IMG/VR virus record: IMGVR_UViG_3300036823_000047 | Coordinates: 1-51,206 of that record | DNA length: 51,206 nt | Strand: one strand, 5' to 3' | Source of the DNA: a virus | Part shown: positions 9,077 through 48,281 of the stretch, piece after piece | Position numbering within the stretch: position 1 is the stretch's first letter | How the letters are laid out: the number at the start of each line of letters is the position of its first letter | The notes under the pieces: generated by a model | The model's input: only the letters and a program-made list of their open reading frames with translations | What the model was told of the DNA's origin: nothing | The model's database searches: none | Made by a program: the position numbers and the translations under genes

Positions 9077-9118
9077 ACCCGGGGCGTGTGGAGTCTCGTA
9101 CAATCCACTCCCCCGGGT
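9077..9118 (+). terminator. Hairpin terminator after tail tube gene
   Basis: Stem ACCCGGGG/CCCCGGGT extended by GTGGA/TCCAC, ending in TTT. It includes one copy of the repeated CGTGTGGAG motif (9085-9093), here used as part of a short hairpin rather than a long one. Confidence 0.7.
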
Positions 9119-9123
9119 TTAAC
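9085..9123 (+). repeat. Control repeat 1: CGTGTGGAG ... GTTTAAC
   Basis: CGTGTGGAG at 9085 and GTTTAAC at 9117, start-to-start distance 32 bases. It is one of six intergenic sites with this arrangement and lies just upstream of the promoter at 9163. Confidence 0.65.
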
Positions 9124-9162
9124 ATGGTTAATCGCCCTCATCGGAATTTCGTCCGTTGGGGG

Positions 9163-9192
9163 TTGCTTTAACATTGTGATCCAAGGTATAAT
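9163..9192 (+). promoter_or_regulatory. Promoter for the tail chaperone/tape measure operon
   Basis: TTGCTT, 18-base spacer, TATAAT, then CAAGCATAAG. It resembles the promoters at 3239 and 47518 (the latter also shares ATTGTGATC in its spacer). Confidence 0.65.
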
Positions 9193-9223
9193 CAAGCATA
9201 AGAGACCAGTGGAGGGTCACGAA

Positions 9224-9586
9224 ATGCCTGTAGCAGTTGTCCAGAGTGAGGACCACCGGGAAGAGCTGAAGACGCTCCCTGGTGGTTACGTGGTCATCCG
9301 CGAGATGACCTACGGAGAGCGCATTACTCGGCAGAGCCTCATGGGTGCCATGAAGGTTCTGAAGGACGTTAAGTCGGACTACGCCGGCGAGATCTCGATG
9401 GCGACGGAGAAGATGACTCTCTGGGACTTCTCCCACCTCATCAAGGAGCACAACCTCCAGGACGCCGACGAGCGACTGCTCAACTTCCAGAACGTCCAGG
9501 ATGTTCAGAAGCTGTCCTCGAAGGTGGGTGACGAGGTTGGTTCCCTGATCGACAAGTGGAACAGCTTCGAGGACGAGGGAAACTAA
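9224..9586 (+). CDS. Tail assembly chaperone, short form (gpG-like)
   Basis: 120 residues from the ATG at 9224 with GGAGGG upstream. It binds the tape measure during tail assembly and is absent from the finished tail. The sequence is charged, with LPGGYVVIREMTYGERITRQ near residue 20, as in actinobacteriophage chaperones. The last codons GAG GGA AAC TAA form the slip site for the longer product. Confidence is raised by the slip site, the position between tube and tape measure, and the overlapping second frame. Confidence 0.8.
   Translation: MPVAVVQSEDHREELKTLPGGYVVIREMTYGERITRQSLMGAMKVLKDVKSDYAGEISMATEKMTLWDFSHLIKEHNLQDADERLLNFQNVQDVQKLSSKVGDEVGSLIDKWNSFEDEGN
9577..9583 (+). promoter_or_regulatory. 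Programmed -1 frameshift site GGGAAAC
   Basis: G GGA AAC in the frame of the short chaperone, one codon before its TAA. This is a textbook X XXY YYZ heptamer. A slip of one base back opens a frame running to 9831. Confidence 0.85.
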
Positions 9587-9831
9587 TACCGCGGCTCAGG
9601 GCATCTATTGTCCTGGACCGCCCCGCTGACAGTGATGCAGTTGAAGTCCTGAACCTCTACCACTTCTGCAAGTTGTTCCATGCTCTACCAAGTAGTGGTG
9701 GCGTATTGGATCAGCCGTTCAAGGTGATGATCCTCTTCGAGGCAATCAGCGCTGCAGAGTCTGAGAGGGATATTCTGGAAGAGGCGCGTCGCAAGCGAGA
9801 GGCGAAACAAAGTGCCGGCAACCGTTCGTGA
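9583..9831 (+). CDS. Tail assembly chaperone extension (gpGT-like, by -1 frameshift)
   Basis: Read only after a -1 slip at 9577-9583, giving a fusion of about 202 residues with the upstream frame. The extension is helical (VLNLYHFCKLFHALPSS, then ESERDILEEARRKREAK), as expected for the T domain that links the tape measure to tube subunits. It overlaps the tape measure start by 20 bases. No good ribosome site serves the in-frame ATG at 9556, which argues against independent start. Confidence 0.8.
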   Translation, partial: LIPRLRASIVLDRPADSDAVEVLNLYHFCKLFHALPSSGGVLDQPFKVMILFEAISAAESERDILEEARRKREAKQSAGNRS

Positions 9832-14115: not shown

Positions 14116-15234
14116 ATGGCTATCATCACTCCGCCCGGGTTCCTACAGAACGCCGGAAGCGTACACACCGCCGAGGTGATGCGTAACTCTCAGGCAGGCA
14201 TGCTCAATGGTGCCCGCTCGGCTGCTTCGCTCGTAGCGAGGGGAGGTGTTCACCCCGCACTGGGCGGACAGGCTGCAGTCACTCAGCAGGGTTCTCCCAC
14301 AATGGGCGTCACTGTTGCTACTGGCTCCATCTACGTTCCTGGAACCGAAGGCAGCTCGCAGGGTGTCTACAGCTGTGTCATTGGCAGCTCGACCAACCTG
14401 ACCGTGACTGCCTCGAGCCCTTCGCTGCCCCGCATCGATACTGTTTGTGCTACTGTTCGTGACTCTGCCTACAGTGGTGCGAACAACGACTGGATTCTTC
14501 AGGTCATCGCGGGTACGCCCAACGCTTCACCTTCAGCACCTGCTATCCCTGCTGACTCCATCGCGCTGGCGAACATTGCTGTCGCAGCAGCTGCCACACA
14601 GGTCGTGAATGCGAACATCTCCGATCTCCGGCAGTACATTGGTATGGGAATCATTCCTGTACGCAACGCTGCGGCTCTTCCAAACCCTGCCTACGAAGGC
14701 ATGTACGCCTACACGCTTGACACGAACATCATGTACTTCTACGATGGCGCGGCGTGGCAGCCCAACAGTGAGCGCTACAAGCCCGTCTGTAACGTCGTGC
14801 AGCAGGCAGCAGACATCCAGTCAGGCTGGACCACCGCCACAGTCACTGCTGTCAAGTTCGGTGCAGGTTCAGAGGTCCTCGACACCGACAGTGCACACGA
14901 TGTCACCACCAACAACTCCCGTATCCTCATCGGTGTGAAGCTTGGCTGGTGGCGAATCGGTGCAATATACTGCCCGGCTTCAAACGGTGCGACGACTTCA
15001 GTGCGTGCGGTCATCTATAAGAACGGTTCTCCAATTCCCGGATCGTTCAATGGTCTGCCTGCAGCCAACGTGTTCGTAGGTGTACCCACCGGCGAGATGT
15101 ATGTTCAGGCTACTTCTGGTACTGACTACATCGAACTGATGGGTTACCAGGCGGCTGCCAGCGGTACGATCGGAACTTCCGTCAGTGCTCCCTACGTTGC
15201 AAGCTCCATCTCAGCAACGTGGGAACGTCCCTAG
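14116..15234 (+). CDS. Minor tail protein, probable receptor-binding or baseplate part
   Basis: 372 residues with GGAGGT upstream. The first ~190 residues look like the upper baseplate/attachment domain found in many actinobacteriophages (PTMGVTVATGSIYVPGTEG, PRIDTVCATVRD). A short link with NIMYFYDGAAWQPN is a fibre motif. The last ~150 residues form a beta-rich domain like the C1q/TNF-type heads of fibres. It probably takes part in host recognition. Confidence 0.7.
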   Translation: MAIITPPGFLQNAGSVHTAEVMRNSQAGMLNGARSAASLVARGGVHPALGGQAAVTQQGSPTMGVTVATGSIYVPGTEGSSQGVYSCVIGSSTNLTVTASSPSLPRIDTVCATVRDSAYSGANNDWILQVIAGTPNASPSAPAIPADSIALANIAVAAAATQVVNANISDLRQYIGMGIIPVRNAAALPNPAYEGMYAYTLDTNIMYFYDGAAWQPNSERYKPVCNVVQQAADIQSGWTTATVTAVKFGAGSEVLDTDSAHDVTTNNSRILIGVKLGWWRIGAIYCPASNGATTSVRAVIYKNGSPIPGSFNGLPAANVFVGVPTGEMYVQATSGTDYIELMGYQAAASGTIGTSVSAPYVASSISATWERP

Positions 15235-17748: not shown

Positions 17749-18194
17749 AGATCGAAGACGTTCAGTTCCAGTCCGGGCAGTACGCCGTCACCTTGGTGAG
17801 GCAAGACTCCACACGGGAGAGGCACGTGTTCCCGCCTCAAACAGTTGCAGATCGTATGCAGCAACATGACCTGGGCCTCGATGAGGCAATCGTCCACGTT
17901 CTCAATGAACGTTTCGAAGACAATCCGATCCAGCCGAGTGAAGAGCACTTGGCAACGATCCGAGAGGAGTTCAAAGATGGCAAAGTACACGAAGGCATTG
18001 AGCGCGCTCGGCGCTGGCCTACTGGTAGCGATTCCGTCTCTCGTGGCAGCGGGACAGGATGGCCACGTGAGCCTTCAGGAGTGGCTGACCGTCCTGGGCC
18101 TGTTCGTCCCCGCCGTCGTCGTAGCGTTGTCGCCGGCGAACACGTTGGGGGAGAACCAGCTGGTACAGCAGGTCCTGAACAACCCCAGCGTTGA
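17745..18194 (+). CDS. Small unknown protein, frame runs through the holin gene
   Basis: 149 residues by the open frame. The first 77 residues look natural (IEDVQFQSGQYAVTLVRQD, acidic, helical DLGLDEAIVHVLNERFED). The rest, from 17977 on, is an Arg/Gly/Pro-rich stretch that mirrors the holin gene in another frame. Either the protein really has a disordered basic tail encoded over 218 shared bases, or a stop has been lost. Function unknown; adjacent tail and lysis genes leave both roles open. Confidence 0.5.
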   Translation: MKIEDVQFQSGQYAVTLVRQDSTRERHVFPPQTVADRMQQHDLGLDEAIVHVLNERFEDNPIQPSEEHLATIREEFKDGKVHEGIERARRWPTGSDSVSRGSGTGWPREPSGVADRPGPVRPRRRRSVVAGEHVGGEPAGTAGPEQPQR

Positions 18195-36507: not shown

Positions 36508-36508
36508 A

Positions 36509-38842: not shown

Positions 38843-39349
38843 TTACCGTGCGTTGTTAAGGCACGCCCAGAAGCGTCGGAGCGCTGTCGAAACCCCTCGC
38901 TCGTATTGCGTACGTTGGAAGCGCTTGTGGATGTTCTCGTACAGCTGTTCGAACATCTTCGGGTCGCTCTTGTGCAGCTTCTTGAGGTCTTGTGTCACAG
39001 CTGCCCAAGTCCACTTGTAGCCGACGCTGCAGACGCCCGAGTGTGTCCAGGTGTCCTTGTGTACGTTCTTGTCTCGCCACTCCACTACAGTGGCAAGCAG
39101 GTCCTTGTTCTCAGGCACTGTCTTCATGTTCATCTTGTACGACTGAACGACAGCCTTCATGGAAGTGTTGACCCTGAAGCAGCGAACCTCTCGGTCGATC
39201 GGGTTCTCACTGTTGTCCAGGTACTTGGTCAGCTTCTTCAGGTTCGACTCAACGCCAACATCCGTTGACCATCCACCGAACTCCTCGATGCTAGCCAGGC
39301 AGCTGAGTCGAAGTACCTGCCATTCCACGTTGTACAGAACCTCGAACAT
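38843..39349 (-). CDS. Unknown protein
   Basis: 168 residues with GAGAGGAGG upstream. Aromatic-rich N-terminus (EVLYNVEWQVLRLSCLASIE), a Lys-rich helix region and C-terminal TALRRFWACLNN. No known motif. First gene behind a good promoter. Confidence 0.5.
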   Translation of the reverse strand: MFEVLYNVEWQVLRLSCLASIEEFGGWSTDVGVESNLKKLTKYLDNSENPIDREVRCFRVNTSMKAVVQSYKMNMKTVPENKDLLATVVEWRDKNVHKDTWTHSGVCSVGYKWTWAAVTQDLKKLHKSDPKMFEQLYENIHKRFQRTQYERGVSTALRRFWACLNNAR

Positions 39350-39371
39350 TCAATTCACCTCCTCTCATTAA

Positions 39372-39402
39372 ATTATAGCAGAGGTCATGCGGTGCTTTGC
39401 AA
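39372..39402 (-). promoter_or_regulatory. Promoter for the 168-residue gene
   Basis: Minus strand TTGCAA (39397-39402) and TATAAT (39372-39377) with a 19-base spacer, about 20 bases before the ATG. Confidence 0.6.
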
Positions 39403-39412
39403 GGGATCTTTT

Positions 39413-39580
39413 TCAGGCGAAGCTGTAGTGCGAACTCCGCGTACCCTTGCCCGGCTGTGCACGCCAGTAGGCACGACGGTTGATCTCGGTCGTGGCCTCG
39501 TTGCGAAGCTCGGCAGCGATACGCTTCTGCTCACGCACCTTCTTCATGTAACCCTTGTAGCACTTACCGTTGAACCGCAT
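39413..39580 (-). CDS. Small basic unknown protein
   Basis: 55 residues with AAGGAGG upstream. Strongly basic and helical (GYMKKVREQKRIAAELRNEA, then INRRAYWRAQPGKG), so nucleic-acid binding is plausible. It lies between repeat 5 and the promoter at 39372. A plus-strand frame over the same bases has no ribosome site and reads less naturally. Confidence 0.55.
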   Translation of the reverse strand: MRFNGKCYKGYMKKVREQKRIAAELRNEATTEINRRAYWRAQPGKGTRSSHYSFA

Positions 39581-39607
39581 CTTTCCTCCTTGGAAGTGTA
39601 ACGAATG

Positions 39608-39686
39608 GCCCGTGTGGAGATGTGTGGTTTACAACAGACCTTGTTTAACTAGCGCCTGCCTTCGTCCCAACCCCTCCACACGGGCC
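39608..39686. repeat. Control repeat 5: GGCCCGTGTGGAG/CTCCACACGGGCC stem around GTTTAAC
   Basis: Perfect 13-base inverted repeat with a 53-base interior that holds CTTGTTTAAC (GTTTAAC at 39643, 32 bases after CGTGTGGAG at 39611). It lies in the gap after the surface-protein gene. Confidence 0.75.
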
Positions 39687-39720
39687 TTGTTGTCCGGTTG
39701 TGCTGTTGTCCTGGTGGATA

Positions 39721-40515
39721 CTACGCCTGGAAGCGAGTGCGACGACGCTTGACCGAGAGGCCGATGAGGATGCCTCCGAGGACCACAACGCCCCCGCCGA
39801 TGCCGGCGAAGATGGTCGACTTGCTTCCGGTGATCGCGAGTGCTCCACCGTTACTGTCGCTACCCCCTCCGACCACCGCGTGAGAAGAGCTCTTCGAGCT
39901 GGACGGCTTCGCCGAAGTACTCGGCTTCGGGCTCGCGGAGCTCGTCGACGGCGAAGGGCTCGGCTTGCAGGTGAGGTCGAACGAGTTGCCGTCGAAGTCG
40001 ACCTCGGTGACAGTCGTCTTGACCGTGCCGGGAGGGTTCGCCGTGTAGCCGACGCCGAACGAGAAGACGAGGTGTCCCTTGCTGAAGTGGTCCACGACCT
40101 TGGTCGGATCCGCGTCGTCGAAGAACTGACCGCCGGTCGACATCTCCCACTTGTCGGTCTTCGTGTTCCAGCGGAGCGTGCCGTAGCCCTTGTTGTCCTC
40201 GTTGATGACCTCGACCGAGAAGAACGAGTCCTGGTCGGGCGCCGGTGAGGCCTTGAACGTGCCGGGCTTGAGGTGCTCGACGTCCGTCTCGGCTTCGAAG
40301 TGCATGAGCTGGTTGCCCTCGAAGACGAAGCCGTCCTTGGTGGACGTGGACATGCGATCCTTCTCGTCACTGTTGACGTACCAGCCAGCAGTGTACGGCA
40401 GGGTGCACGCAGTCGGGATCGCAGTGCCGCCGTCGGGCACGTCCGCGAAGGCCGGGATAGGTGCGAACAAGGCCGCGATGGCCACGCTCGCACCCAGTGC
40501 CAGGGTTTTCTTCAC
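39721..40515 (-). CDS. Cell-wall-anchored surface protein with LAxTG sorting signal
   Basis: 264 residues, GTG start with AAAGGAT upstream. Signal peptide 1-24 (LALGASVAIAALFAPIPAFA). An extracellular beta-rich domain spans ~30-180 with two cysteines (ACTLP near residue 37, LTCKP near 178) that could form a disulfide. A Ser/Pro/Lys linker (~180-215) spans the wall. LAITG at 226-230 is followed by a hydrophobic span and KRRRTRFQA, a complete sortase signal of the class E type. Host sortase would display it on the infected cell, where superinfection exclusion, receptor masking or cell contact are possible roles. Confidence 0.8.
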   Translation of the reverse strand: MKKTLALGASVAIAALFAPIPAFADVPDGGTAIPTACTLPYTAGWYVNSDEKDRMSTSTKDGFVFEGNQLMHFEAETDVEHLKPGTFKASPAPDQDSFFSVEVINEDNKGYGTLRWNTKTDKWEMSTGGQFFDDADPTKVVDHFSKGHLVFSFGVGYTANPPGTVKTTVTEVDFDGNSFDLTCKPSPSPSTSSASPKPSTSAKPSSSKSSSHAVVGGGSDSNGGALAITGSKSTIFAGIGGGVVVLGGILIGLSVKRRRTRFQA

Positions 40516-40536
40516 TTGGGCGGATCCTTTCTAATG

Positions 40537-40553
40537 GTACGGTATGTCCGTAC
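40537..40553. other. Short palindrome upstream of the surface-protein gene
   Basis: GTACGG-TATGT-CCGTAC, six-base arms, about 20 bases upstream of the GTG at 40515. It may be an operator or the 3' trailer of the tRNA-like transcript beside it. Confidence 0.35.
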
Positions 40554-40556
40554 TCG

Positions 40557-40633
40557 TGCGCCTGAGTGGACTCGAACCACTGCTTCCCCTTGCCCCAGAC
40601 TGTAGGGCGGCTTCCTGACGGAAGCTCAGGCGA
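40557..40633 (-). tRNA. tRNA-like element 1, aberrant anticodon arm
   Basis: 77 bases on the minus strand. T arm AGTGG-TTCGAGT-CCACT and acceptor CGCCTG/CAGGCG pair perfectly; the first acceptor pair is T/C mismatched. The D arm pairs CTTC/GAAG with a short 6-base loop. The anticodon arm GCCCT-ACAGTCT-GGGGC lacks the invariant U33, so no anticodon can be named. No CCA is encoded. It may be a decayed tRNA or a tRNA mimic. Confidence 0.45.
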
Positions 40634-40684
40634 CCCCTCTATCCCATGAACGCGTAGGGTCGTTCGAATAGAGGCACTTATCCC

Positions 40685-40864
40685 TTACCTGTTCGGCCGA
40701 CCGGAGCCTCCGCCATTTGCATTGCGGTCAGGTGGGGGATCGAAGATCTGGTCTCCGTACTCTTCCAGGAGACGTGCGTTCTGTTCCGATCGAGTGGTCA
40801 TGCTGTAGAGGCCGTCGTCGTCCTTACGTACGACGAGTGACGTGGAGTTCGATGTCGTCTCCAT
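40685..40864 (-). CDS. Small unknown protein
   Basis: 59 residues if the ATG at 40864 is used (39 from 40801). Contains TTRSEQNARLLEEYGDQIFD and a Gly/Asn/Pro-rich tail. Overlaps the upstream gene by 41 bases. Start uncertain. Confidence 0.4.
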   Translation of the reverse strand: METTSNSTSLVVRKDDDGLYSMTTRSEQNARLLEEYGDQIFDPPPDRNANGGGSGRPNR

Positions 40865-41009
40865 CCGCTTCCACCTCGAAGTTGTATGCGGAGTTCGGGA
40901 GGAGCTGCCGATCGGTGTAGACGACGACCTCACGGTCGTGGTCGATGTTGATGGACTCGATCTCACCGTCACTCAGACCGACTTCCTTGAGCAGGTCGTA
41001 CAGCTTCAC
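40824..41009 (-). CDS. Small acidic unknown protein
   Basis: 61 residues. LYDLLKEVGLSDGEIESINI then strands NIDHDREVVVYTDR and NFEVEADGDDIELHV. Start overlaps the upstream stop. Family not recognised. Confidence 0.5.
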   Translation of the reverse strand: MKLYDLLKEVGLSDGEIESINIDHDREVVVYTDRQLLPNSAYNFEVEADGDDIELHVTRRT

Positions 41010-41284
41010 GCTCGCCCCACTTCCTGAACCTCGAAGGTGACCTGGATGTCGACGAGGCCGCAGCCTTCACGGAACATCTCGTCCATGATCTCCGACAGCA
41101 TCCGAACGCCGACTCGTGCCGGAACGAGGTAGTACTGGCTGTAGTTGAAGCGGTTCGAGACACGCATCATCTCACGAACCGGGGGCGGAGGTGACTTGGC
41201 CTGGACGGAGATGTTGTAGGTGGCGTCCTCTTCCCACTTGTCCTCGGGAGCTACCGGAGGTGCCGAGATCGGCTGGTCCATCAC
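41006..41284 (-). CDS. Unknown protein
   Basis: 92 residues. Pro-rich start, then NRFNYSQYYLVPARVGVRML and a C-terminal strand VDIQVTFEVQEVG. Coupled to genes on both sides (ATGA). Confidence 0.5.
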   Translation of the reverse strand: MMDQPISAPPVAPEDKWEEDATYNISVQAKSPPPPVREMMRVSNRFNYSQYYLVPARVGVRMLSEIMDEMFREGCGLVDIQVTFEVQEVGRA

Positions 41285-41631
41285 ACCTGCCTTTCGTTTT
41301 CGATGTGGTCACGCAGAGTCGTTTGGGTTCTACAGACGTTGATCGTCCAGAGGTTGTCCAGGCCGACCATGTCGAGCAGTGCTCGCCAGGTCATGCCCGA
41401 GTTCTTTACGTCCGGCTGGTGTCCGGTCACATACCAGCCCGCGATGGTCCTGATCGCAGCGTACAGGTGGACCTTCTCTTCGTTCGGGTACGTCTTGTTG
41501 AACACGATAACAGTGCCGACGGTCAGCAGCGTGTCATCTTGCGGGATGTGGCTGACTGCTTTGGCGTACCGCTCGTACAAGGAAGCCTGCTCCAAGTACC
41601 AGCTCGGCTCCAACGATTCGATTCGTGACAT
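41281..41631 (-). CDS. Unknown protein
   Basis: 116 residues. Helical start (WYLEQASLYERYAKAVSHIP), a strand pair (LLTVGTVIVFNKTY, KVHLYAAIRTIAGWYVTG), and a WRALLDMVGLDNLWTI helix. No known motif. First gene after the tRNA-like pair. Confidence 0.5.
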   Translation of the reverse strand: MSRIESLEPSWYLEQASLYERYAKAVSHIPQDDTLLTVGTVIVFNKTYPNEEKVHLYAAIRTIAGWYVTGHQPDVKNSGMTWRALLDMVGLDNLWTINVCRTQTTLRDHIENERQV

Positions 41632-41651
41632 GTTTCCTCCCTAGATTGTCA

Positions 41652-41717
41652 CGTACCGTAAGAGGACTTGAACCTCTTGGCTGCCAAGGGCTGCGACCCT
41701 CTCAGCTACGGCGGTAC
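41652..41717 (-). tRNA. tRNA-like element 2, shortened anticodon region
   Basis: About 66 bases on the minus strand. D arm GCTG-AGAGGGTCG-CAGC, preceded by the expected TA. T arm AGAGG-TTCAAGT-CCTCT. Terminal stem GTACCG/CGGTAC. Only 12 bases lie between the D and T arms (23 in a normal tRNA), so the anticodon arm is cut down to CTTGGCAGCCAAG. It cannot decode as drawn. Confidence 0.4.
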
Positions 41718-41842
41718 CACATAAAATGCCCTCATGGCAGTCGAAGAACTTTGGACGTTAGACCATGACTCTGCCCTCCAATTGTACGGCCTCGATGCTT
41801 GCGTGGGTGCCATTAGCTGTTTATCCCTCTCACATCGAGTCG
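41718..41842. other. Gap between tRNA-like elements
   Basis: No convincing frame on either strand. A CATGG/CCATG hairpin is possible. The whole noncoding stretch 41632-41922 seems devoted to the two tRNA-like elements. Confidence 0.3.
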
Positions 41843-41916
41843 GGCCCCTGGGAGGCATCGAACCTCCACTAACCGCCGCTTGAAGTTCCCGGCGCGTACG
41901 TATCCCATGCAGGGGC
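41843..41916 (-). tRNA. tRNA-like element 3, perfect acceptor and T arms
   Basis: 74 bases on the minus strand. Acceptor GCCCCTG/CAGGGGC is a perfect 7-base stem, and T arm GGAGG-TTCGATG-CCTCC is perfect. The interior has normal length (42 bases), but instead of a 7-base anticodon loop it folds as CGCCG/CGGCG around an 11-base loop with CTTCAAG in the middle. If that loop were read in the usual way the anticodon would be UCA; I do not consider this supported. Confidence 0.45.
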
Positions 41917-41922
41917 GTCTTG

Positions 41923-42111
41923 CTACGGCTTGACCTGCTTCGTCATCGGCTTCCACTTGCCGTTGTCGTCACAGATGTCCGTGTGTCCCTTGCTACCGCG
42001 GGTGTCGCCCGGGTTGCAGTGCTTCCCCTTGCTGGTATCCTGACAGCCACTCGCGCCCGACAGGAATCCGATCGTGATCACGGCTGCTGCCGCTACGATG
42101 ATCCGCTTCAC
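41923..42111 (-). CDS. Small lipoprotein or secreted Cys-rich peptide
   Basis: 62 residues. Signal sequence MKRIIVAAAAVITIGFLSGA followed by SGC as lipobox-like site (ASGC), then a Cys-containing mature part (HCNPGDTRGS, DICDDNGKW). Probably held on the outer face of the membrane. Overlaps the upstream gene by four bases. Confidence 0.6.
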   Translation of the reverse strand: MKRIIVAAAAVITIGFLSGASGCQDTSKGKHCNPGDTRGSKGHTDICDDNGKWKPMTKQVKP

Positions 42112-42308
42112 TTGGGGACCACGTTGTGCAGGTTCTCCTCGAGCGCCTCGACCGCGGACTCGATGGTCTCCTCACGGTCGTTCATCCCCTGGATCTCGTC
42201 GACGTACTTCTTGCCGACCTGGCACAGGAGGATGAACAGTGCTTCCGAGTGGGTCACCCCTTCGTTCTGGATGATCTCCTGGACGGCCTCTTCGATCTTG
42301 TCGGGCAT
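42108..42308 (-). CDS. Small acidic unknown protein
   Basis: 66 residues, helical (DKIEEAVQEIIQNEGVTHSE, then ETIESAVEALEENLHNVV). No known motif. Member of the 42.5-41.9 kb leftward operon. Confidence 0.5.
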   Translation of the reverse strand: MPDKIEEAVQEIIQNEGVTHSEALFILLCQVGKKYVDEIQGMNDREETIESAVEALEENLHNVVPK

Positions 42309-42310
42309 GT

Positions 42311-42547
42311 CTACTCCTTCGTGTTTTCCTGGAACACCCTACGCATCAGCTGTACCAGGAAGTGGTTGGGCTGTGCCTTGACGAGGTCGCGCATGGCAAC
42401 CTGTACCAGGATGCGGCGATGGTTGATGTACTCACCATCCGTCACCTTGCGAAAATTCCGACCAAGTGACGCCGCAAGAACCTTGTCCTCTTCGACCTTG
42501 CTGCGGATCTTGCGAACCTCTTGGGCCAGTTCGTCAACGTCTAGCAC
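42311..42547 (-). CDS. Unknown helical protein
   Basis: 78 residues. DELAQEVRKIRSKVEEDKVL followed by a basic segment with NHRRILVQVAMRDLVKAQ. First gene behind the promoter at 42581. Confidence 0.5.
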   Translation of the reverse strand: MLDVDELAQEVRKIRSKVEEDKVLAASLGRNFRKVTDGEYINHRRILVQVAMRDLVKAQPNHFLVQLMRRVFQENTKE

Positions 42548-42580
42548 CCACCGCTCCCTTCTGGCTTTGCGCTTGACTTA

Positions 42581-42610
42581 ATAATACAGCGGTTCGCGAG
42601 CACCCTTCAA
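42581..42610 (-). promoter_or_regulatory. Promoter for the 42.5 kb operon
   Basis: Minus strand TTGAAG (42605-42610), 18-base spacer, TATTAT (42581-42586), about 35 bases before the ATG at 42547. Confidence 0.55.
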
Positions 42611-42638
42611 GAGGTGCAACTTCAAAATCTTTTTGTCC

Positions 42639-43226
42639 TTACAGGACCTTACAGTTCGGCCGGAAGAGATGCCGATGAGCGGTAGGGATAACGCCCTGCT
42701 GCCAGAGGTTCCGAGTGGTCAGGACGAACTGGCCCTCCTCCAGCCGTTCGATCTTCAGACCCTTGTTCTCCAGCACGTGGGCATCGAGCAGAGGAGTCAG
42801 CAACTGCACCCTGAACTGCCATCCACCGAAGCCATCGCCCGCACCGGGCTTGATGGAATCAGGACCGACGGTGTAGTGCGTGTAGCGCTCGGTGATGAGC
42901 GCGTTACCATTCCTGTCCTGCTCAACCATGTCCAGCCAGTAGTCGTCATCGCTGTCCACGTACGGGCCCTCGATGGTGACGTAGAGCTCGTTACGTGCGT
43001 TCAAGGCCGTGTGGAAGTGGTAGAGGTACTTCTCGGGCGTGTAGCCTTCACCCTTCGGTGGATCGATGTTCTCGACCCTACGATACCACCAGACGGGACA
43101 GAACCACGACTCTCCGCGACCTTCCCCTGCCTGGAAGCCTCGACCCTTACGAGCCAGTCGAAGGTGGTTGGTCTCTTCGAACTCCTCGATCGCCTGTGAC
43201 AGACGCACCCAGTGCGGATTCGTCAT
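42639..43226 (-). CDS. Unknown protein
   Basis: 195 residues from the ATG at 43226, which overlaps the upstream stop; the longer frame upstream reads as shadow. Aromatic-rich (SWFCPVWWYRRVENID, then YLYHFHTALNARNELYVTIE) with beta-rich character. It may be a small-molecule or nucleic-acid-binding domain. No family recognised. Confidence 0.5.
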   Translation of the reverse strand: MTNPHWVRLSQAIEEFEETNHLRLARKGRGFQAGEGRGESWFCPVWWYRRVENIDPPKGEGYTPEKYLYHFHTALNARNELYVTIEGPYVDSDDDYWLDMVEQDRNGNALITERYTHYTVGPDSIKPGAGDGFGGWQFRVQLLTPLLDAHVLENKGLKIERLEEGQFVLTTRNLWQQGVIPTAHRHLFRPNCKVL

Positions 43227-43504
43227 CGCTGCAGCTCCGCGAAGTGGGCCAGGTGGTTCGACGCCTCGGCGTACACCTTCATGTAGATCACGTCCTGCGT
43301 CATCCAGAACAGCTTGACGCGCGTACTGTTCTCCATCTCCTCGTCGGCCAGGTCCTCCGCGGTGCATCCGCTAGAGTGCCGAGCGAGGATGTTTACCTCG
43401 TCGCGGATCTCCTGGAGGTCCTTGTAGGTTGCCTCCGCACCCTTCATCCCCAGCAGTGCGTTGTTGAGCTTCGTTCCCAGCTCCTGGAGTCGAGTCTCGT
43501 CCAT
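43223..43504 (-). CDS. Unknown helical protein
   Basis: 93 residues. Helices RLQELGTKLNNALLGMKGAE and EIRDEVNILARHSSG, acidic middle, then FWMTQDVIYMKVYAEASNHL. No motif. Coupled to the downstream gene. Confidence 0.5.
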   Translation of the reverse strand: MDETRLQELGTKLNNALLGMKGAEATYKDLQEIRDEVNILARHSSGCTAEDLADEEMENSTRVKLFWMTQDVIYMKVYAEASNHLAHFAELQR

Positions 43505-43540
43505 TACTCCTCCGGTCTCATCAGGCCCAGCGTAACTGGA

Positions 43541-43560
43541 CGACCCCCGAAGGGGTTTCG
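43541..43560 (-). terminator. UUCG-type hairpin terminator
   Basis: Minus strand reads AACCCC-TTCG-GGGGGT, a stable tetraloop hairpin, just after the stop of the 66-residue HTH gene. Confidence 0.65.
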
Positions 43561-43563
43561 ACC

Positions 43564-43764
43564 TTACCTCTTGATCAGGTTACCCTTCCGGTAAGGGTGA
43601 CCTCCTTGCTTGCGGAAGACGGCGCCATTGGACTCGAGCAAGTGATGCATGCCCGAGTAGCTGTACCCGTACTTGTCTGCCAGGAACCGAATGCTGTCCC
43701 CCTTGAAGTACTGGGCCACGATAATCTCCTGGCCCTTCTTCGTGACCCTCGACACCGCACTCAC
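43564..43764 (-). CDS. Small HTH protein
   Basis: 66 residues. SRVTKKGQEIIVAQYFKGDS then IRFLADKYGYSYSGMHHLLE is a helix-turn-helix of the transposase/resolvase-like kind common in actinobacteria and their phages. Basic C-terminus (PYRKGNLIKR). Likely DNA-binding regulator. It is the best candidate for a small phage repressor or activator acting on the intergenic repeats, which is inference. Confidence 0.65.
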   Translation of the reverse strand: MSAVSRVTKKGQEIIVAQYFKGDSIRFLADKYGYSYSGMHHLLESNGAVFRKQGGHPYRKGNLIKR

Positions 43765-44024
43765 CTGCAGAACACCCCCGGGTGACTACTTCCGTCGCAG
43801 TCGAACGGGCAGATCAGAGCAGCGAACGACTGGTCCCACGCCTCCTGGCACGTACCGCTCAGGAGGATCTCCTGCTCGTTACTGTCCAGGCCTGCAATGT
43901 CCTGAACGTAGCCCTGGCCCAAGAGCCAGTTGCCGTACGTAGCCTTTGCGACCTCGTTGTCGGGCAGATCGACCTCGTGTGCTACCCTGTGCATGTGACA
44001 TTCGTGGCGACTCTTGACCTTCAC
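43761..44024 (-). CDS. Unknown Cys/His-containing protein
   Basis: 87 residues from a GTG at 44024 that overlaps the upstream stop (GTGA). RHECHMHRVAHEVDLP and C-terminal LICPFDCDGSSHPGVFC could bind metal. No family recognised. Confidence 0.5.
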   Translation of the reverse strand: MKVKSRHECHMHRVAHEVDLPDNEVAKATYGNWLLGQGYVQDIAGLDSNEQEILLSGTCQEAWDQSFAALICPFDCDGSSHPGVFCR

Positions 44025-44326
44025 TTGCGCTCCTTGAAGTTCTCGCACTCGACGTAGTCGCAACCGTACTTGTCGGCCGGGTGGTCGCACTCCTCGTCGG
44101 TCACGACCATCAGGTCTTCGAACGGGCAGGCGCACTCCTTGTTGTGCAGACCGAACTTGATCACGTGGATCGACCGCTGGAAGGGGTTCTTGGTCAGGTA
44201 CTTCGCGACCGGGTGCTTCTTACACGTGAGCGTGTACATGCCCTCCTTGGGCCGCTGAACGTCTGTCTCTAGACGAGGACCGTCGTACTGGGCGAACTTG
44301 AACACTCGAACTGGAACGAAAGCCAC
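44021..44326 (-). CDS. Unknown Cys-rich protein
   Basis: 101 residues. LTCKKHPVAKYLTKN, HNKECACPFEDLMVV and EECDHPADKYGCDYVECEN give seven Cys and several His, so one or two zinc sites are likely. Small zinc proteins of phages often bind host RNA polymerase or nucleic acids. No specific match. Confidence 0.5.
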   Translation of the reverse strand: MAFVPVRVFKFAQYDGPRLETDVQRPKEGMYTLTCKKHPVAKYLTKNPFQRSIHVIKFGLHNKECACPFEDLMVVTDEECDHPADKYGCDYVECENFKERK

Positions 44327-44345
44327 GGTGGCCTCCTTTCTACGT

Positions 44346-44380
44346 ACCCGGATGCGCTACTCTGAAGCTGCCATCCGGGT
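44346..44380 (-). terminator. Hairpin terminator after the DUF3761-like lipoprotein gene
   Basis: ACCCGGATG/CATCCGGGT, perfect 9-base stem with a 17-base loop, just past the stop at 44387 on the minus strand. Confidence 0.65.
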
Positions 44381-44386
44381 CAGGTC

Positions 44387-44707
44387 TTACAGGAACGCCT
44401 TGAAGCACTCGTCGAGCGTCCAGCCTTCGGCCTTCAGCTGGGTCGGCGTCACGGTGTTCTGGATCGTCTCACACTGGCCGACGTAGTCCGCGCCGTCCGG
44501 AAGTTGAAGCACCTGCTGCCGCAATGCAACTCCTCCGTGGTGGCTACAGGCGCCCTTGCCCGAGCTCGACGAGTGCGAACCGTCCTTGCACGTTGCTCCC
44601 GACGTATGGTTCGTCGTCGTCGTAGGAACCTTGCGGATCTCCCCGTGGTTGCATCCGCCCAGCAGACCCAATGCAACGATACCCACCAGCAGCTTACGCA
44701 CGAACAC
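44387..44707 (-). CDS. Lipoprotein with DUF3761-like core
   Basis: 106 residues. Signal peptide with a clear lipobox (VALGLLGGC, Cys19). After a Thr-rich linker comes GATCKDGSHSSSSGKGACSH HGGV-like core (CKDGSHS ... GACSHHGGV), the hallmark of small actinobacterial and other DUF3761 proteins. It would be anchored on the outer face of the membrane. Phage lipoproteins in this place often block superinfecting DNA. That role is inference. Confidence 0.7.
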   Translation of the reverse strand: MFVRKLLVGIVALGLLGGCNHGEIRKVPTTTTNHTSGATCKDGSHSSSSGKGACSHHGGVALRQQVLQLPDGADYVGQCETIQNTVTPTQLKAEGWTLDECFKAFL

Positions 44708-44882
44708 GCACCCTCTTCCCCTTGAGAACCGACTCCGCGACTGCCTTCATGGTCAGCCACGCTGCCTCTGACCGAACCGAAGTCGCGGCTTCTGCCTTGC
44801 TGGTGTTAACCGCAACCTCCTGCTCCACGTACTCCTCGTCGTGGTCCCGCAGCCATTCGCGGTACAGCTCGTAGCCCTTCAC
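44694..44882 (-). CDS. Small unknown protein
   Basis: 62 residues, GTG start coupled to the upstream stop. ELYREWLRDHDEEYVEQEVA then AAWLTMKAVAESVLKGKRVR. Helical, no motif. Confidence 0.5.
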   Translation of the reverse strand: MKGYELYREWLRDHDEEYVEQEVAVNTSKAEAATSVRSEAAWLTMKAVAESVLKGKRVRVRA

Positions 44883-45022
44883 AGTTCCTCCTTGAGTGCC
44901 TTGACGAACTCGTCCTTGGTCATCTGTCCGTCCTTGTAGTGCTTAAGAAGGCGTTCGACCCTCTCCCCAATGCCCTCTTCCGGGGAAAGCCTCTCCTGCA
45001 ACCAGTCCATAGACGGTGTCAT
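44879..45022 (-). CDS. Small unknown protein
   Basis: 47 residues from ATG 45022. MDWLQERLSPEEGIGERVER then LKHYKDGQMTKDEFVKALKE, a helix pair resembling a single EF-hand-like or SHOCT-like unit. Stop overlaps the next GTG (GTGA), which supports translation. Confidence 0.5.
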   Translation of the reverse strand: MTPSMDWLQERLSPEEGIGERVERLLKHYKDGQMTKDEFVKALKEEL

Positions 45023-45042
45023 TGCTCACTCCCTACCTTGGT

Positions 45043-45130
45043 TAACAACACCGAACACGTAGACCCAAAGCACCACACGCCATGGTTTGAATGGCTGTCC
45101 TGGTTTGGGTCTCATGCACATCTGTTGTTA
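45043..45130. repeat. Nested inverted repeats between two small genes
   Basis: TAACAACA/TGTTGTTA (45043, 45123) enclose AGACCCAAA/TTTGGGTCT (45061, 45104). The outer arm overlaps the stop of the downstream-reading gene. A GGTTAAC at 45041 recalls the control boxes. Confidence 0.5.
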
Positions 45131-45295
45131 GCCGAACAGTGGAAGGATCCTCGTAGTTGGTTCGAGAAGCTGCTCCACCTTCCAAAGCTGATCCCAGGTC
45201 TCCCTCTGATCCTGCAGGGAGTCGTCGTCCATCATCTCCTGCAACGCATCCCGGTGGATCTCCAACGCGGCCTTCATGATCTCTTCGTACGTCAT
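45128..45295 (-). CDS. Small unknown protein
   Basis: 55 residues. TYEEIMKAALEIHRDALQEM, an acidic DDD turn, then RETWDQLWKVEQLLEPTTR. Start overlaps the upstream stop. No motif. Confidence 0.5.
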   Translation of the reverse strand: MTYEEIMKAALEIHRDALQEMMDDDSLQDQRETWDQLWKVEQLLEPTTRILPLFG

Positions 45296-45630
45296 CGTCC
45301 GAACGCCTTCCTTCCTTGGTTGTCTGTCTCTCCGACGATCCTGGTCGTTACGTACGACCCCTGTGTGGTGTTCGCGTTCCGAGCACTCCTGAGAAGGCCG
45401 ATCTCCGGACCGACCTTACACCCCGTCTTCGGGTTCGTAGCCTGATCGAGCCAATGTCCCCCAGGCACACCTCGGAGGGACTTCTCGAACGTGTTCTGCA
45501 TCTTGTACGGTAGCGGCTTCGACTTCTTCTTGGACGGAACCTCCCCGTTGCCCTTAGACAACATCCGACCTTGGGAGGCAAGTCTCCGGAGCTGTAGCTC
45601 CTTGATCTTGTCCTTCGTCGACTGCTTCAC
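45292..45630 (-). CDS. Basic unknown protein
   Basis: 112 residues. Lys/Arg-rich N-terminus (KQSTKDKIKELQLRRLASQG, SKKKSKPLPYK), then LRGVPGGHWLDQATNPKTG. Possible DNA- or RNA-binding protein. Confidence 0.45.
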   Translation of the reverse strand: MKQSTKDKIKELQLRRLASQGRMLSKGNGEVPSKKKSKPLPYKMQNTFEKSLRGVPGGHWLDQATNPKTGCKVGPEIGLLRSARNANTTQGSYVTTRIVGETDNQGRKAFGR

Positions 45631-45674
45631 CGCTACTCCTTTGATTTGAAGGTTTTCTTTTTATTCTACTGCAG

Positions 45675-45698
45675 ACCCCCTTGGAACCTTCAAGGGGT
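45675..45698 (-). terminator. Hairpin terminator
   Basis: ACCCCTTG/CAAGGGGT with a 7-base loop, just past the stop at 45700 on the minus strand. Confidence 0.65.
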
Positions 45699-45699
45699 T

Positions 45700-45860
45700 T
45701 CAGCTGTTTTGCGGAGGGCCGAGACGTTCTACCACGTACGGGTTACCCTGGTGGTACTCCGTAGCGATCTCGACCACCTTGCGAAACGTAGCATACTTGT
45801 CCTGCGGTCTGCCTTTGACAGTGCCGCACGCATCTTGTCCCTCATCTCGTCGTGGTCCAT
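45700..45860 (-). pseudogene. Small gene apparently broken by a frameshift
   Basis: The ATG at 45860 overlaps the upstream stop (TGATG) and begins DHDEMRDKMRAALSKAD, a natural-looking helix. About 20 residues on, the natural reading moves to another frame, QDKYATFRKVVEIATEYHQG to a stop at 45700. A single -1 shift would give one protein of about 54 residues. No strong slip heptamer is present, so an indel or sequencing error is more likely than programmed shifting. Confidence 0.4.
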
Positions 45861-46255
45861 CAGTACCACGACCCCTTCGCGTTCTGTGCACCAACCCGTC
45901 GTTCCTTACTGGTCGTCATGACCAGTACGTTCTTCTCCGGACGGCCCTGCTTGTACGTGTCAGGCTCACGATACCCATCTGCCCTCGACAGGAGCTGCAG
46001 TACGTCCGCCCAACTCAACATGAACGTCTCTACCACAACCCTGTCCTCGACGAGCCGCGTAACCGAAGTGTTCGGCTTCTGGGGCTTGAGTCCCAGTGCC
46101 AGCAACTCCTCATCCGAGACCCACGTACTCCTCACCCGCTTCAGGATGGCATTGTTGTCATACCACTCTTCTACGGCCCACGACGGAATCGTAACCTTGA
46201 ATGTCAAACCAGGGCGCTCAGGGTCTGCGTTCGTCACGAATACGAATGTATCCAT
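45860..46255 (-). CDS. Unknown protein, first gene of the leftward operon
   Basis: 131 residues from the ATG at 46255, preferred over 46261 because GGAGG then sits at normal distance. Beta-rich start (DTFVFVTNADPERPGLTFKV), helical middle (SDEELLALGLKPQKP). No motif. A TATAAT box lies about 35 bases upstream. Confidence 0.55.
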   Translation of the reverse strand: MDTFVFVTNADPERPGLTFKVTIPSWAVEEWYDNNAILKRVRSTWVSDEELLALGLKPQKPNTSVTRLVEDRVVVETFMLSWADVLQLLSRADGYREPDTYKQGRPEKNVLVMTTSKERRVGAQNAKGSWY

Positions 46256-46290
46256 GCCCATGCCTCCTAGGGTTTCGTGCTCTTGGATCT

Positions 46291-46296
46291 ATTATA
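46291..46296 (-). promoter_or_regulatory. -10 box of a leftward promoter
   Basis: TATAAT on the minus strand within GTGGTATAATAG. The -35 is weak (TGAAGT at 17 bases). It would start the operon that begins with the gene at 46255. Confidence 0.5.
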
Positions 46297-46726
46297 CCAC
46301 AGAAACCCATATGACTTCACGACCGTCTGCTGATCGTACGGTCTGGCTCCCCTCTACTAGCTACCGACGATGTATGACCTGACAAACAGGTCGCTAAACC
46401 TGTATGCGAGGCGCAGAAACCGTCTCGGAAAATCGGTCTATTCCCTCTTGAACCCTAACTCGATCATTGGCTGTTCTAGTACCATTCAAGTTAAAGTTCA
46501 TAATACGGGTGTTATTATATCTATGAATTTATATACATAGTTATACTAGAGATTATACAGTACGAAGACTCTAGTCTTTCTACCTTGTTAAACAACCGTT
46601 GTTTTTCTAGCTCGGTGGGATTAGTTCGTAGAACGATACTAATCCCGGACTAGACAATATTACCTGCCTAGATCCCCTAGCCCCTGTGGTGCTGTGGAGG
46701 CGACCTAAGCCGCCTCCCAGACCGGA
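46297..46726. other. AT-rich noncoding region, candidate origin or early control region
   Basis: About 430 bases without a convincing gene, far richer in A/T than the surroundings at 46480-46570. It holds GTTAAAC at 46587 within CTTGTTAAACAACC (identical to 25511-25524) and a long hairpin GGGATTAGTTCGT/ACGA-T-ACTAATCCC at 46617-46646. It separates the main leftward operon from the last minus-strand genes. No iteron array or known origin motif was recognised. Confidence 0.45.
46696..46717 (-). terminator. Hairpin terminator after the membrane peptide
   Basis: GGAGGCG/CGCCTCC, 7-base stem, 8-base loop, ten bases past the stop on the minus strand. Confidence 0.55.
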
Positions 46727-46804
46727 CTATCCCCTCGACATTACCAGGGCCATGATTACGATCCCCAGGAGCATCCACTGGAGTACCGAGGCGTGGACCT
46801 TCAC
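46727..46804 (-). CDS. 25-residue membrane peptide
   Basis: GTG at 46804 overlaps the stop of the gene before it (GTGA). The peptide MKVHASVLQWMLLGIVIMAL ends in VMSRG and is one membrane span. Translation coupling is the main support. Target unknown. Confidence 0.5.
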   Translation of the reverse strand: MKVHASVLQWMLLGIVIMALVMSRG

Positions 46805-46962
46805 GCGAAGTCCCAGTCCACGACCAGGGCCGCCTTGATCGACTCCAACTGCTTCTCCGCCCAGACCCAGGCCTGGTAGACCTTGGCCTCCTCGGAGACG
46901 GGCCCCGGGACGTGACCGTTCGCGAGTTCCTCGATGTACGTGTCGATGATGGCCTGACTCAT
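46801..46962 (-). CDS. Small unknown protein
   Basis: 53 residues from ATG 46962. SQAIIDTYIEELANGHVPGP then EEAKVYQAWVWAEKQLESIK. G/C-rich codons unlike the AT-rich gap beside it, a sign of a real gene. No motif known. Confidence 0.55.
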   Translation of the reverse strand: MSQAIIDTYIEELANGHVPGPVSEEAKVYQAWVWAEKQLESIKAALVVDWDFA

Positions 46963-46983
46963 GGAGTGACTCCTAACCTAAGG

Positions 46984-47006
46984 TATATAACCCCTACGGT
47001 TATATA
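46984..47006. promoter_or_regulatory. TATATAACC/GGTTATATA palindrome
   Basis: Perfect 9-base arms, 5-base centre, 22 bases upstream of the ATG at 46962 on the minus strand. It could be an operator that overlaps a -10 region, or part of the terminator of the gene before. Confidence 0.5.
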
Positions 47007-47018
47007 TCCAAGGAAGGG

Positions 47019-47040
47019 AGGGGGCCCCGTAGGGCCCCTC
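47019..47040 (-). terminator. GC-rich hairpin terminator
   Basis: GGGGCCC/GGGCCCC with a 4-base loop (47021-47038), directly after the stop at 47048 on the minus strand, followed by CTTCCTTGG. Confidence 0.65.
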
Positions 47041-47047
47041 CTCCTTA

Positions 47048-47377
47048 CTAGATCTGCTTGGTGACGTACTTGGTAGCGAAGGCCACCGACTGGTCCTTCG
47101 TGAGGGCCTTGATACCCTTCTCCCCCTTAACCAGTAGGCCGTTCCGGGAGTAGTTGTACATCATCTGGGGGCGGATCCGCTTCCCACTCCCGAGGGCCTC
47201 CAGGGCCCCGTTCACGATGTTGTGGAGGGCGTAGGGGGTGATGGTCTCCGAGTCCCCGAACACCGTCTCGGTGAGCTCCATGATCACCGTCTCCGGGGTG
47301 GGGGTCTCCTCGAGTTCGGTCTCCTCGAGAACGGTCTCTTCGATGGACTCGGGCTGGGTGGTGGTGATGTCGGACAT
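47048..47377 (-). CDS. HTH-like protein with acidic arm
   Basis: 109 residues with AAAGGAG upstream. The first 35 residues are Glu/Thr-rich and disordered. The domain after it (PYALHNIVNGALEALGSG, IRPQMMYNYSRNGLL, DQSVAFATKYV) parallels the central part of the 38222 protein, including the PQ-x-x-Y-x-Y segment. Probably a DNA-binding protein. It is transcribed away from the terminase genes, so it may control the divergent promoter region. Confidence 0.55.
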   Translation of the reverse strand: MSDITTTQPESIEETVLEETELEETPTPETVIMELTETVFGDSETITPYALHNIVNGALEALGSGKRIRPQMMYNYSRNGLLVKGEKGIKALTKDQSVAFATKYVTKQI

Positions 47378-47420
47378 GGGGTGCTCCTTTGGGTTTTGGT
47401 TGGTTTTTGTTTTCCTGATA

Positions 47421-47447
47421 ACTATATTATAATGCGGATCATGTAAA
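47421..47447 (-). promoter_or_regulatory. Possible leftward promoter for the 47048 gene
   Basis: Minus strand TTTACA (47442-47447) with TATAGT (47421-47426) at 15 bases; a TATAAT (47426-47431) is nearer. Spacing is not ideal. Confidence 0.35.
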
Positions 47448-47517
47448 GATGCACGCTCCCTACGTGTTTATCAAAACTACATCCAAAACATGTGTTACCA
47501 TGTGGGTCAAGATAGGC

Positions 47518-47546
47518 TTGCTATTGTGATCTGACTCAGCTATAAT
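47518..47546 (+). promoter_or_regulatory. Rightward late promoter
   Basis: TTGCTA, 17-base spacer, TATAAT, then CAGCGTAAG. It shares ATTGTGATC in the spacer with the promoter at 9163 and precedes the terminase genes. Confidence 0.65.
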
Positions 47547-47566
47547 CAGCGTAAGGGAGGGCCAAT

Positions 47567-47926
47567 ATGGACGATGCATGGGTTACTGAGGCTGAGCTTG
47601 CCGCTCTTGGACTCGATCGAGCGACAGGTATTCGGACTGCCGATGGCGGAGCTGAAGGCTACGTAGACCAGGCCAACCGGATGATCCGTGAGGGTGCGCC
47701 CATGGCGGCCGCTTCTCTGGTTCGTCTGGCGCAGTACTCCGAGAGCGACACGATTCGACTCCGAGCTGCGGTTGAGATCCTGAACCGCGCCACCGTGCAG
47801 GGTGCTTCGTCTGTCGACGGTCGCGAGCCTTGGGCGGCTGTGTACGAGAACGTCCTCACGGCTGGGGATGTTGACAAGATGGTCCAGGATGCCAATGCCT
47901 GGCGTGCATCTCAGGAAGGTCGGTAA
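47567..47926 (+). CDS. Terminase small subunit candidate
   Basis: 119 residues with GGGAGGG upstream. N-terminal HTH-like segment (VTEAELAALGLDRATGIRTA) and a helical core (AASLVRLAQYSESDTIRLRA, AVEILNRATVQG). Small terminases bind the packaging site and recruit the large subunit. Its place as first gene of the packaging operon supports the call, although a gap of 1 kb with small membrane genes separates it from the large subunit. Confidence 0.55.
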   Translation: MDDAWVTEAELAALGLDRATGIRTADGGAEGYVDQANRMIREGAPMAAASLVRLAQYSESDTIRLRAAVEILNRATVQGASSVDGREPWAAVYENVLTAGDVDKMVQDANAWRASQEGR

Positions 47927-48042
47927 TGGCTGCTGCAAAGAAAGCCGCTGCGAAGAAGGCAATGCCGCCTGCGTTCATCAAGCAGGCGAAGAAGAGCGCT
48001 GCTACGCCTGTCAAGAAGGCTGCGCCGAAGAAGAAGCGCTAG
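47926..48042 (+). CDS. Lys/Ala-rich 38-residue peptide, histone-tail-like
   Basis: ATG overlaps the stop before it (TAATG). The peptide begins MAAAKKAAAKKAMPPAF and ends TPVKKAAPKKKR, with 13 lysines and arginine in 38 residues. Such composition is typical of histone H1-like DNA-condensing tails. Coupling to the terminase-like gene suggests action on DNA before or during packaging. This is inference. Confidence 0.6.
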   Translation: MAAAKKAAAKKAMPPAFIKQAKKSAATPVKKAAPKKKR

Positions 48043-48048
48043 AAGCCA

Positions 48049-48130
48049 GTTAGACGAGCAAGCTCTCGAAGCCTCACCCTTGTAACACTGGGGCTGGTTT
48101 GCTCGTCTAACCTAGCTTCTAATCGGTCTA
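48049..48130 (+). repeat. 31-base control element B with inverted arm
   Basis: GTTAGACGAGCAA (48049-48061) and TTGCTCGTCTAAC (48099-48111) form a perfect 13-base stem. The right arm continues as CTAGCTTCTAATCGGTCTA, matching elements A and C outside the stem. Confidence 0.7.
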
Positions 48131-48146
48131 GCAAAGCAGCTATAAT
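48117..48146 (+). promoter_or_regulatory. Promoter embedded in control element B
   Basis: TTCTAA, 18-base spacer, TATAAT (48141-48146). The -35 lies inside the conserved TTCTAATCGGTCTA part of element B, so a protein bound there could block or help this promoter. Confidence 0.5.
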
Positions 48147-48240
48147 AAACACGGTATGAGAGCTGATCACCTAAGGACGGTAGGATCCTAACCAGCTCGA
48201 CACGCACATAAGCCACTACGGATCGCCAAGTAACCCCAGG

Positions 48241-48281
48241 CGTGTGGAGTCTTGAAGAGCTGCTCTAGGAGGTAGTTAAAC
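48241..48281 (+). repeat. Control repeat 6: CGTGTGGAG ... GTTAAAC
   Basis: CGTGTGGAG at 48241 and GTTAAAC at 48275, distance 34, just before the ribosome site of the gene at 48302. No inverted CTCCACACG partner is seen here, but CACGGG follows GTTAAAC. Confidence 0.6.

Follow-up and report, generated by a model that had tools for sequence, protein, structure and literature searches.

What purpose is served by a two-part sequence that recurs between the genes of a tailed phage whose lineage is so far uncultured? The phage is represented by the IMG/VR virus record IMGVR_UViG_3300036823_000047 (51,206 bp, analysed over its whole length and referred to here as the window), and the repeated unit consists of an asymmetric arm, CGTGTGGAG, followed 23 to 25 nucleotides later by the palindromic core GTTWAAC. 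A sequence-only reading had described six such repeats and had considered control of transcription, of replication or of partition. Its observation was real and is confirmed in part, with small errors in coordinates, and its interpretation is partly supported. We suggest, tentatively and with somewhat less than an even chance of being right, that the repeats are a phage-specific cis signal at operon boundaries, where transcription that comes in from the side of the arm is stopped or attenuated.

Seven exact units are present in the window, at five sites of which two are symmetric, compared with none in dinucleotide shuffles. The arm alone is not above chance in the window when one mismatch is allowed (25 versus 22), and the core alone is enriched (7 versus 2; 0 of 100 shuffles). 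Ten arms match CGTGTGGAG exactly on one strand or the other. A sense unit on the plus strand (9085-9123; arm 9085-9093, core GTTTAAC 9117-9123) lies in the gap between the genes for the major tail protein and the tail assembly chaperone. Another (48241-48281; arm 48241-48249, core GTTAAAC 48275-48281) is found in the late-operon leader, where a TATAAT at 48141 precedes it by about 100 bp; relatives have the unit at this position as well. On the minus strand a sense unit at 32944-32982 (arm 32974-32982) has its core, at 32944-32950, flanked by AGGAGG and by the ATG that starts gene 32617-32943, and back to back with it stands an antisense arm on the plus strand (33026-33066; arm 33026-33034, degenerate core GTGTAAC 33060-33066). 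The symmetric sites are 25481-25553, in the leftward operon between a queD-like gene and its upstream neighbour (arm 25481-25489 on the plus strand, core GTTAAAC 25514-25520, arm 25545-25553 on the minus strand), and 39611-39682 (plus-strand arm 39611-39619, core GTTTAAC 39643-39649, minus-strand arm 39674-39682). Past the rightward late operon, the plus-strand arm at 18880-18888 belongs to an irregular site (18880-18985), with GTTAAC at 18896, TTTAGAC at the regular place of the core and, at 18919-18985, a hairpin with a 14-bp stem of the form GTTAGAC...GTCTAAC.

Of the six arm positions given in the sequence-only reading, those at 9085, 18880, 32974, 39611 and 48241 were recovered by the exact-match scan, and the sixth, placed at 25491, is really at 25481. 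The start-to-start spacing between arm and core is indeed 32 at 9085, 32974 (minus strand) and 39611 and 34 at 48241; the reported value of 23 is wrong because it was counted from the misplaced arm, the true value being 33. Inverted partners of three copies exist as stated (25545, 33026 and 39674), although at 52-64 rather than 40-60 bases. Five of the six arms are followed by a core, 18880 being the irregular one; since GTTWAAC is palindromic, orientation is meaningful for the arm alone. Two elements had been overlooked: a lone minus-strand arm without GTTWAAC at 17807-17815, antisense to the local genes, sense to read-through that arrives leftward, and kept in seven genomes, and a degenerate sense unit on the minus strand at 45040-45079 (CGTGTGGTG .. 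GTTAACC).

Are these repeats more than a peculiarity of one genome? A pattern scan of IMG/VR returned 107 stretches, with repeated matches in about 15 records of the same lineage; the remaining single matches come from unrelated contigs and appear to be due to chance. We read complete or long relatives piecewise, with gene calls from a simple script, and each complete relative contains two to nine exact units, or seven to twelve with up to two mismatches. Proteins shared with these relatives, compared gene by gene, are about 25-87% identical, so that the DNA around the units has largely diverged, and the units have been kept nonetheless. Their consensus across the lineage is GSCGTGTGGAGTTYTG-N~18-GTTWAACANGG. 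In ten genomes 39 of 40 exact sites lie between called genes, whereas the intergenic share of the sequence is only 10-23%. Thus both expectations voiced in the sequence-only reading, that the sites should not be frequent inside genes and that a motif search should find them conserved in relatives, were borne out, with the caveat that the 9085 site lies inside a frame that is open into the next gene (9071-9586). The unit, searched as TTNTG plus core, has no match in the 84,980 bacterial and archaeal species genomes of GTDB. Its recurrence in relatives, its intergenic position and its absence from those genomes together identify it as a phage signal under selection; a host promoter or regulator, which we had considered as its source, was rejected on the same zero matches. 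A mobile element resembling miniature inverted-repeat transposable elements or repetitive extragenic palindromes was rejected too, as no target duplication was seen and the sites are kept at orthologous gaps.

The open frame at 9085 also raised the possibility of a protein-coding cause. In four genomes the tail gap is open in the chaperone frame (VWS..LTWL..CFNIV.Q.IIKH..MPVAVV), and in other relatives a start, MIEAI.., is present there in frame; from sequence, the chaperone gene may carry an N-terminal hydrophobic extension. We rejected a coding origin of the repeat, the frame being open in those four genomes but with spacing that varies by 1-3 and with stops elsewhere.

The arrangement of the arms follows the genes. 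A sense arm is often found 8-18 nucleotides after the upstream stop codon and an antisense arm often 12-15 nucleotides before the next start codon. Two arms may share one GTTWAAC, stand alone, or stand back to back (as at 32974/33026). Many sites are symmetric, with two opposite arms about 62-65 bp apart around a single palindromic GTTWAAC that is about three helical turns from either, and at these sites the core is the palindrome CCNTGTTWAACANGG. Where several genomes share a gap, they also share the orientation of its arm: the tail gap holds a sense unit (7 of the 10 tabulated genomes, and G004 besides), and the arms at 17807 (7 genomes) and 18880 (10 genomes, all with an arm in this gap) are antisense. 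The arms at 17815 (minus strand) and 18880 (plus strand) are sense for read-through at the convergent junction of the late and early operons. In the leftward (early) region of the window and of two relatives, G009 and G014, the sites are about 6.6-7.7 kb apart (in G009 at 23.1, 29.9, 36.9, 43.8 and 50.7 kb).

The sense strand carries a further feature, at the level of RNA. The CGTGTG of the sense arm pairs with the spacer, and the fold is significant (p<=0.05) in 19 of 45 sense units versus none of 24 antisense units, with the foot of the stem at GUUWAAC or a few bases from it. The unit at 9085 forms a stem-loop around its arm (about 9075-9120; z = -3.4), and one site, L004, reaches z -6.1. 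In 11 units every one of the 121 pairs between positions -5 and +5 is intact, a count that is no test in itself as the units had been pre-selected for pairing; what is informative is the diversity of pair types (pair -5 is GC, AT, CG or TA and pair -1 is CG or GC) together with the finding that deviations within the invariant arm are GU pairs, which are allowed in the sense strand only. Pairs were counted by structure, MAFFT alignment of the stem units misregistering the 3' strand. Pairing of one arm with the other in RNA was rejected: variant arms are uncompensated (CGTGTGGTG opposite CTCCACACG in several genomes), and since the arms of symmetric sites do not compensate one another, the arm must be read as sequence.

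How might such a unit work? The arm, GSCGTGTGGAGTTYTG, would be recognised by its sequence, most likely through a putative phage-encoded DNA-binding protein, and GTTWAAC, about three helical turns further on and within CCNTGTTWAACANGG at symmetric sites, would be the point at which transcription is halted or released. Facing arms across one GTTWAAC could then form a two-way stop and a single arm a one-way stop. At many sense units the transcript is predicted to fold into a GC-rich stem-loop with its foot at GUUWAAC, much like an intrinsic terminator without the full U-tract. Stops of this kind would divide the leftward region into separate blocks and control the rightward operon from its leader, which would give them a part in the timing of expression, and the TATAAT-like boxes found downstream of sense units suggest that a stop may be followed by a new promoter. 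Directional stopping fits because the sense stems end at GUUWAAC, sites mark operon ends as well as the late leader, transcripts running in opposite directions have arms of opposite orientation, and promoters lie downstream. With respect to the last point, TATAAT-like boxes on the same strand within 400 nucleotides are found downstream of 16 of the 45 sense units and upstream of only 3, and all lie outside the units except one in G002 (36648). In several genomes a conserved sigma-A-like promoter, TTGCTTTAACATTGTGRTCCAANGTATAATCAAGC, directly follows the tail-gap unit (window 9160-9200).

Several observations weigh against this proposal. Orthologous sites are not independent observations; no significant fold was found at the late-leader site 48241 or at the gene-start site 32974, and many sense units lack a stem, over half of the 45 being without a significant one; the distance between arm and core is also like promoter geometry; and in six genomes GTTWAAC separates the ribosome-binding site from the start codon, a hint of possible translation control. 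The last two points lead to the alternatives. According to the main rival, which we regard as somewhat unlikely, the units would be promoters or promoter-operators specific to the phage, the arm acting as a -35-like element or activator site and GTTWAAC as a -10-like element or operator for a phage regulator, in the manner of the extended start-associated sequences (ESAS) of cluster K mycobacteriophages. These phages possess a 13-bp ribosome-site sequence, SAS, and a 17-bp inverted repeat, ESAS, with a short spacer and SigA-like hexamers. Initially connected with translation and subsequently with promoters (PMC3203893, PMC11373665), ESAS is today interpreted as a promoter combined with an inverted repeat (PMC11373665). 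The distance from TTYTG to GTTWAAC, about 18 bp with a variation of ±1, suits a promoter, as do the direction of the one-armed units, of which 31 are directed into the downstream gene and 10 away from it, and the small number of TATAAT boxes per genome. In the six genomes mentioned, however, a Shine-Dalgarno-like AGGAGG or GGAG precedes GTTWAAC in one gene family and ATG follows right after it, so that the transcript must begin before GTTWAAC, which contradicts GTTWAAC as a -10 element at those sites. Likewise, the arm is part of a covarying sense-strand stem-loop, and transcripts therefore cross it. Many conserved arms are oriented against the local genes, and our PHROGs/Pfam scan, which covered about 30 of the 81 called genes of the window, gave no match to a sigma factor or RNA polymerase, nor to an integrase, repressor or partition protein. 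A scan of 32000-51206 and of the consensus for TTGACA and TATAAT with a spacing of 16-18 found none inside the units. GTTWAAC as the -35 element of a general-stress sigma factor (GTTTAA..GGGTAT) was also rejected, inspection showing no GGGTAT at the right distance.

The same stem and the same ribosome-binding sites can also be seen from the side of the messenger. If the stem-loop and GUUWAAC were bound by a protein or RNase, the unit would control translation start or mRNA processing, resembling SAS or the RNase III sites of T7. This reading we consider clearly unlikely. It accounts for the covarying sense stem with its GU pairs, for the position of GTTWAAC between Shine-Dalgarno sequence and ATG in that one gene family, and for the stem-loops in gaps of co-directional genes. 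But conserved antisense arms, symmetric sites and uncompensated variants need a double-stranded or direction-neutral reader, and the stem is missing as a significant fold from most sense units.

The remaining alternative is that the sites serve DNA architecture, replication or recombination, as loop anchors, boundaries of module exchange or partition sites. The spacing of about 7 kb in the leftward region of some genomes and the constant position at gene boundaries are in line with it, yet it gives no reason for arm orientations fixed by transcription or for sense-only stems, and the scanned proteins include neither partition genes nor an integrase. We judge it very improbable. For a role in replication or partition, as entertained in the sequence-only reading, we found no support, because the sites occur only at gene boundaries, their orientation is fixed by the gap, significant stems are confined to the sense strand and no partition gene is among the proteins scanned. 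Partition sites are clustered repeats beside ParA/ParB genes; the present repeats are dispersed, and none of the scanned proteins matched such a gene.

A second repeat family accompanies the units at both operon junctions. It consists of stems of 12-20 bp that start with GTTAGAC and end with GTCTAAC and whose sequence varies among genomes (window 48049-48111 and 18919-18985; G005 9274-9345; G006 21328-21403; G013 14365-14448; G014 794-864). These hairpins are probably strong bidirectional terminators.

The window otherwise has the gene content of a tailed phage. Its rightward genes include those of terminase, head and tail, and its leftward genes those for DNA polymerase, primase, helicase, exonuclease, single-strand annealing and 7-deazaguanine. 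A DNA-modification cluster at 21902-26866 encodes QueC, QueE, a PTPS/QueD-like protein and GTP cyclohydrolase; the protein of 21902-22660 looked to us like a relative of DpdA/transglycosylase, with no family match. At the DNA level no isolated phage was found to come close to the left half of the window; the best protein matches among isolated phages, those of capsid, terminase, primase and polymerase, are below 60% identity, and a terminase search of the 84,980 species genomes found no prophage relative. Judged loosely from its company in IMG/VR, the lineage may be one of soil phages. Three small, conserved proteins encoded on the minus strand are candidates for the protein that reads the arm. 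The product of 38222-38779 is modelled with a helix-helix-strand-strand-helix (winged-helix-like) core and has no PDB match at E <= 0.001; that of 37417-37917 is modelled as a winged helix with a long C-terminal helix and has weak matches to MarR/BusR-type regulators (best E 0.01); and the product of 47048-47377 has a PQMMYNY motif and a suspected helix-turn-helix, with HTH_17 and DUF1836 at weak E-values only. PDB sequence and fold searches with the two best DNA-binding candidates gave no strong match.

Is the system a known one in disguise? The stoperator of cluster A mycobacteriophages (L5 type) is a 13-bp asymmetric consensus bound by the immunity repressor. In place of that 13-mer the present units have GSCGTGTGGAGTTYTG plus GTTWAAC. 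They share with stoperators the asymmetric intergenic sites spread over the genome and, as proposed here, the directional stop logic (PMC9283540, PMC6550527), and differ in sequence, in being bipartite, in the opposite arms around a palindrome and in the attached RNA stem-loop. Stoperators belong to temperate phages with a repressor and integrase or partition genes; among the roughly 30 proteins of this phage that were scanned, no integrase or immunity repressor was identified. Intrinsic terminators and attenuators likewise have a GC-rich covarying sense stem-loop at operon boundaries, which was found here at part of the sites. Unlike them, the units include stemless copies, have an invariant arm and core and follow the stem not with a U-rich tract but with GUUWAAC; a terminator scan of 32000-51206 gave no match at the sites. 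The temperate Streptomyces phage phiC31 has conserved inverted repeats near its early promoters, which are sites of its known repressor. They too are palindromic sites dispersed across the early region, and are not known to have a distant arm. The 50-bp intergenic motif of the lytic Gordonia cluster DJ actinophages is similar in its few copies between genes and upstream of starts, but contains TATAAT (PMC9671010), which is missing from the unit consensus.

The likeness to SAS and ESAS lies in about a dozen dispersed, intergenic, two-part copies per genome near gene starts, in a consensus that drifts between subclusters and in an unproven function; similar motifs occur in Microbacterium clusters EC, EF, EG and EI (PMC7302621). 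In the present units, however, arm and core are separated by three helical turns, two opposite arms may have one palindromic core in common, and antisense copies exist. Instead of a 13-bp sequence at the ribosome-binding sites of a dozen genes, we find the core between Shine-Dalgarno sequence and start in one gene family only, and neither a 17-bp imperfect inverted repeat with a short spacer nor SigA -35 and -10 hexamers 17-18 bp apart belong to the unit consensus. The sequence-only reading was right to see stoperator- or operator-like logic in a bipartite motif unlike those described: dispersed phage control sites of this general kind are known, and none of the described motifs that we compared has this sequence or architecture.

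The lineage is part of a wider group with at least 566 loci related to its capsid gene in IMG/VR, the more distant relatives having capsids about 60% identical. In most of these distant relatives the corresponding tail gap contains no unit. In the wider-group genomes G022-G031 (L225-L253) CCCTGTGG (in G027, CGTGTGGAG) is nevertheless the top or a near-top over-represented word, with the exception of G030. Other second halves, seen by eye at few sites, include GTTACATRGATAT (G022, G028) and an ATTGATGYCAAT-like sequence (G027), and G027 has an extra CGATYCAAT element upstream of its CGTGTGGAG arm. It is conceivable, if rather unlikely, that a large group of soil phages, abundant and uncultured, stops transcription by a two-part code that reads direction, in which a slowly changing arm, C[G/C]TGTGG.., is read by a shared phage factor and the second half (GTTWAAC, GTTACATRGATAT or ATTGATG-like) is specific to the clade. 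If so, regulatory specificity would be swapped between clades while the arm stays constant.

What does the unit mean for these phages? As the arm is the top or a near-top over-represented word in most genomes examined and its bearers have at least 566 capsid relatives, it is probably a central element of control in a phage lineage that is abundant and so far uncultured. The units provide a map of likely transcription-unit boundaries, and the motif allows fragments to be assigned to the lineage. Should directional stopping prove true, the units would constitute a second, independently built stoperator-like system, and one that operates in a lytic-looking group of phages.
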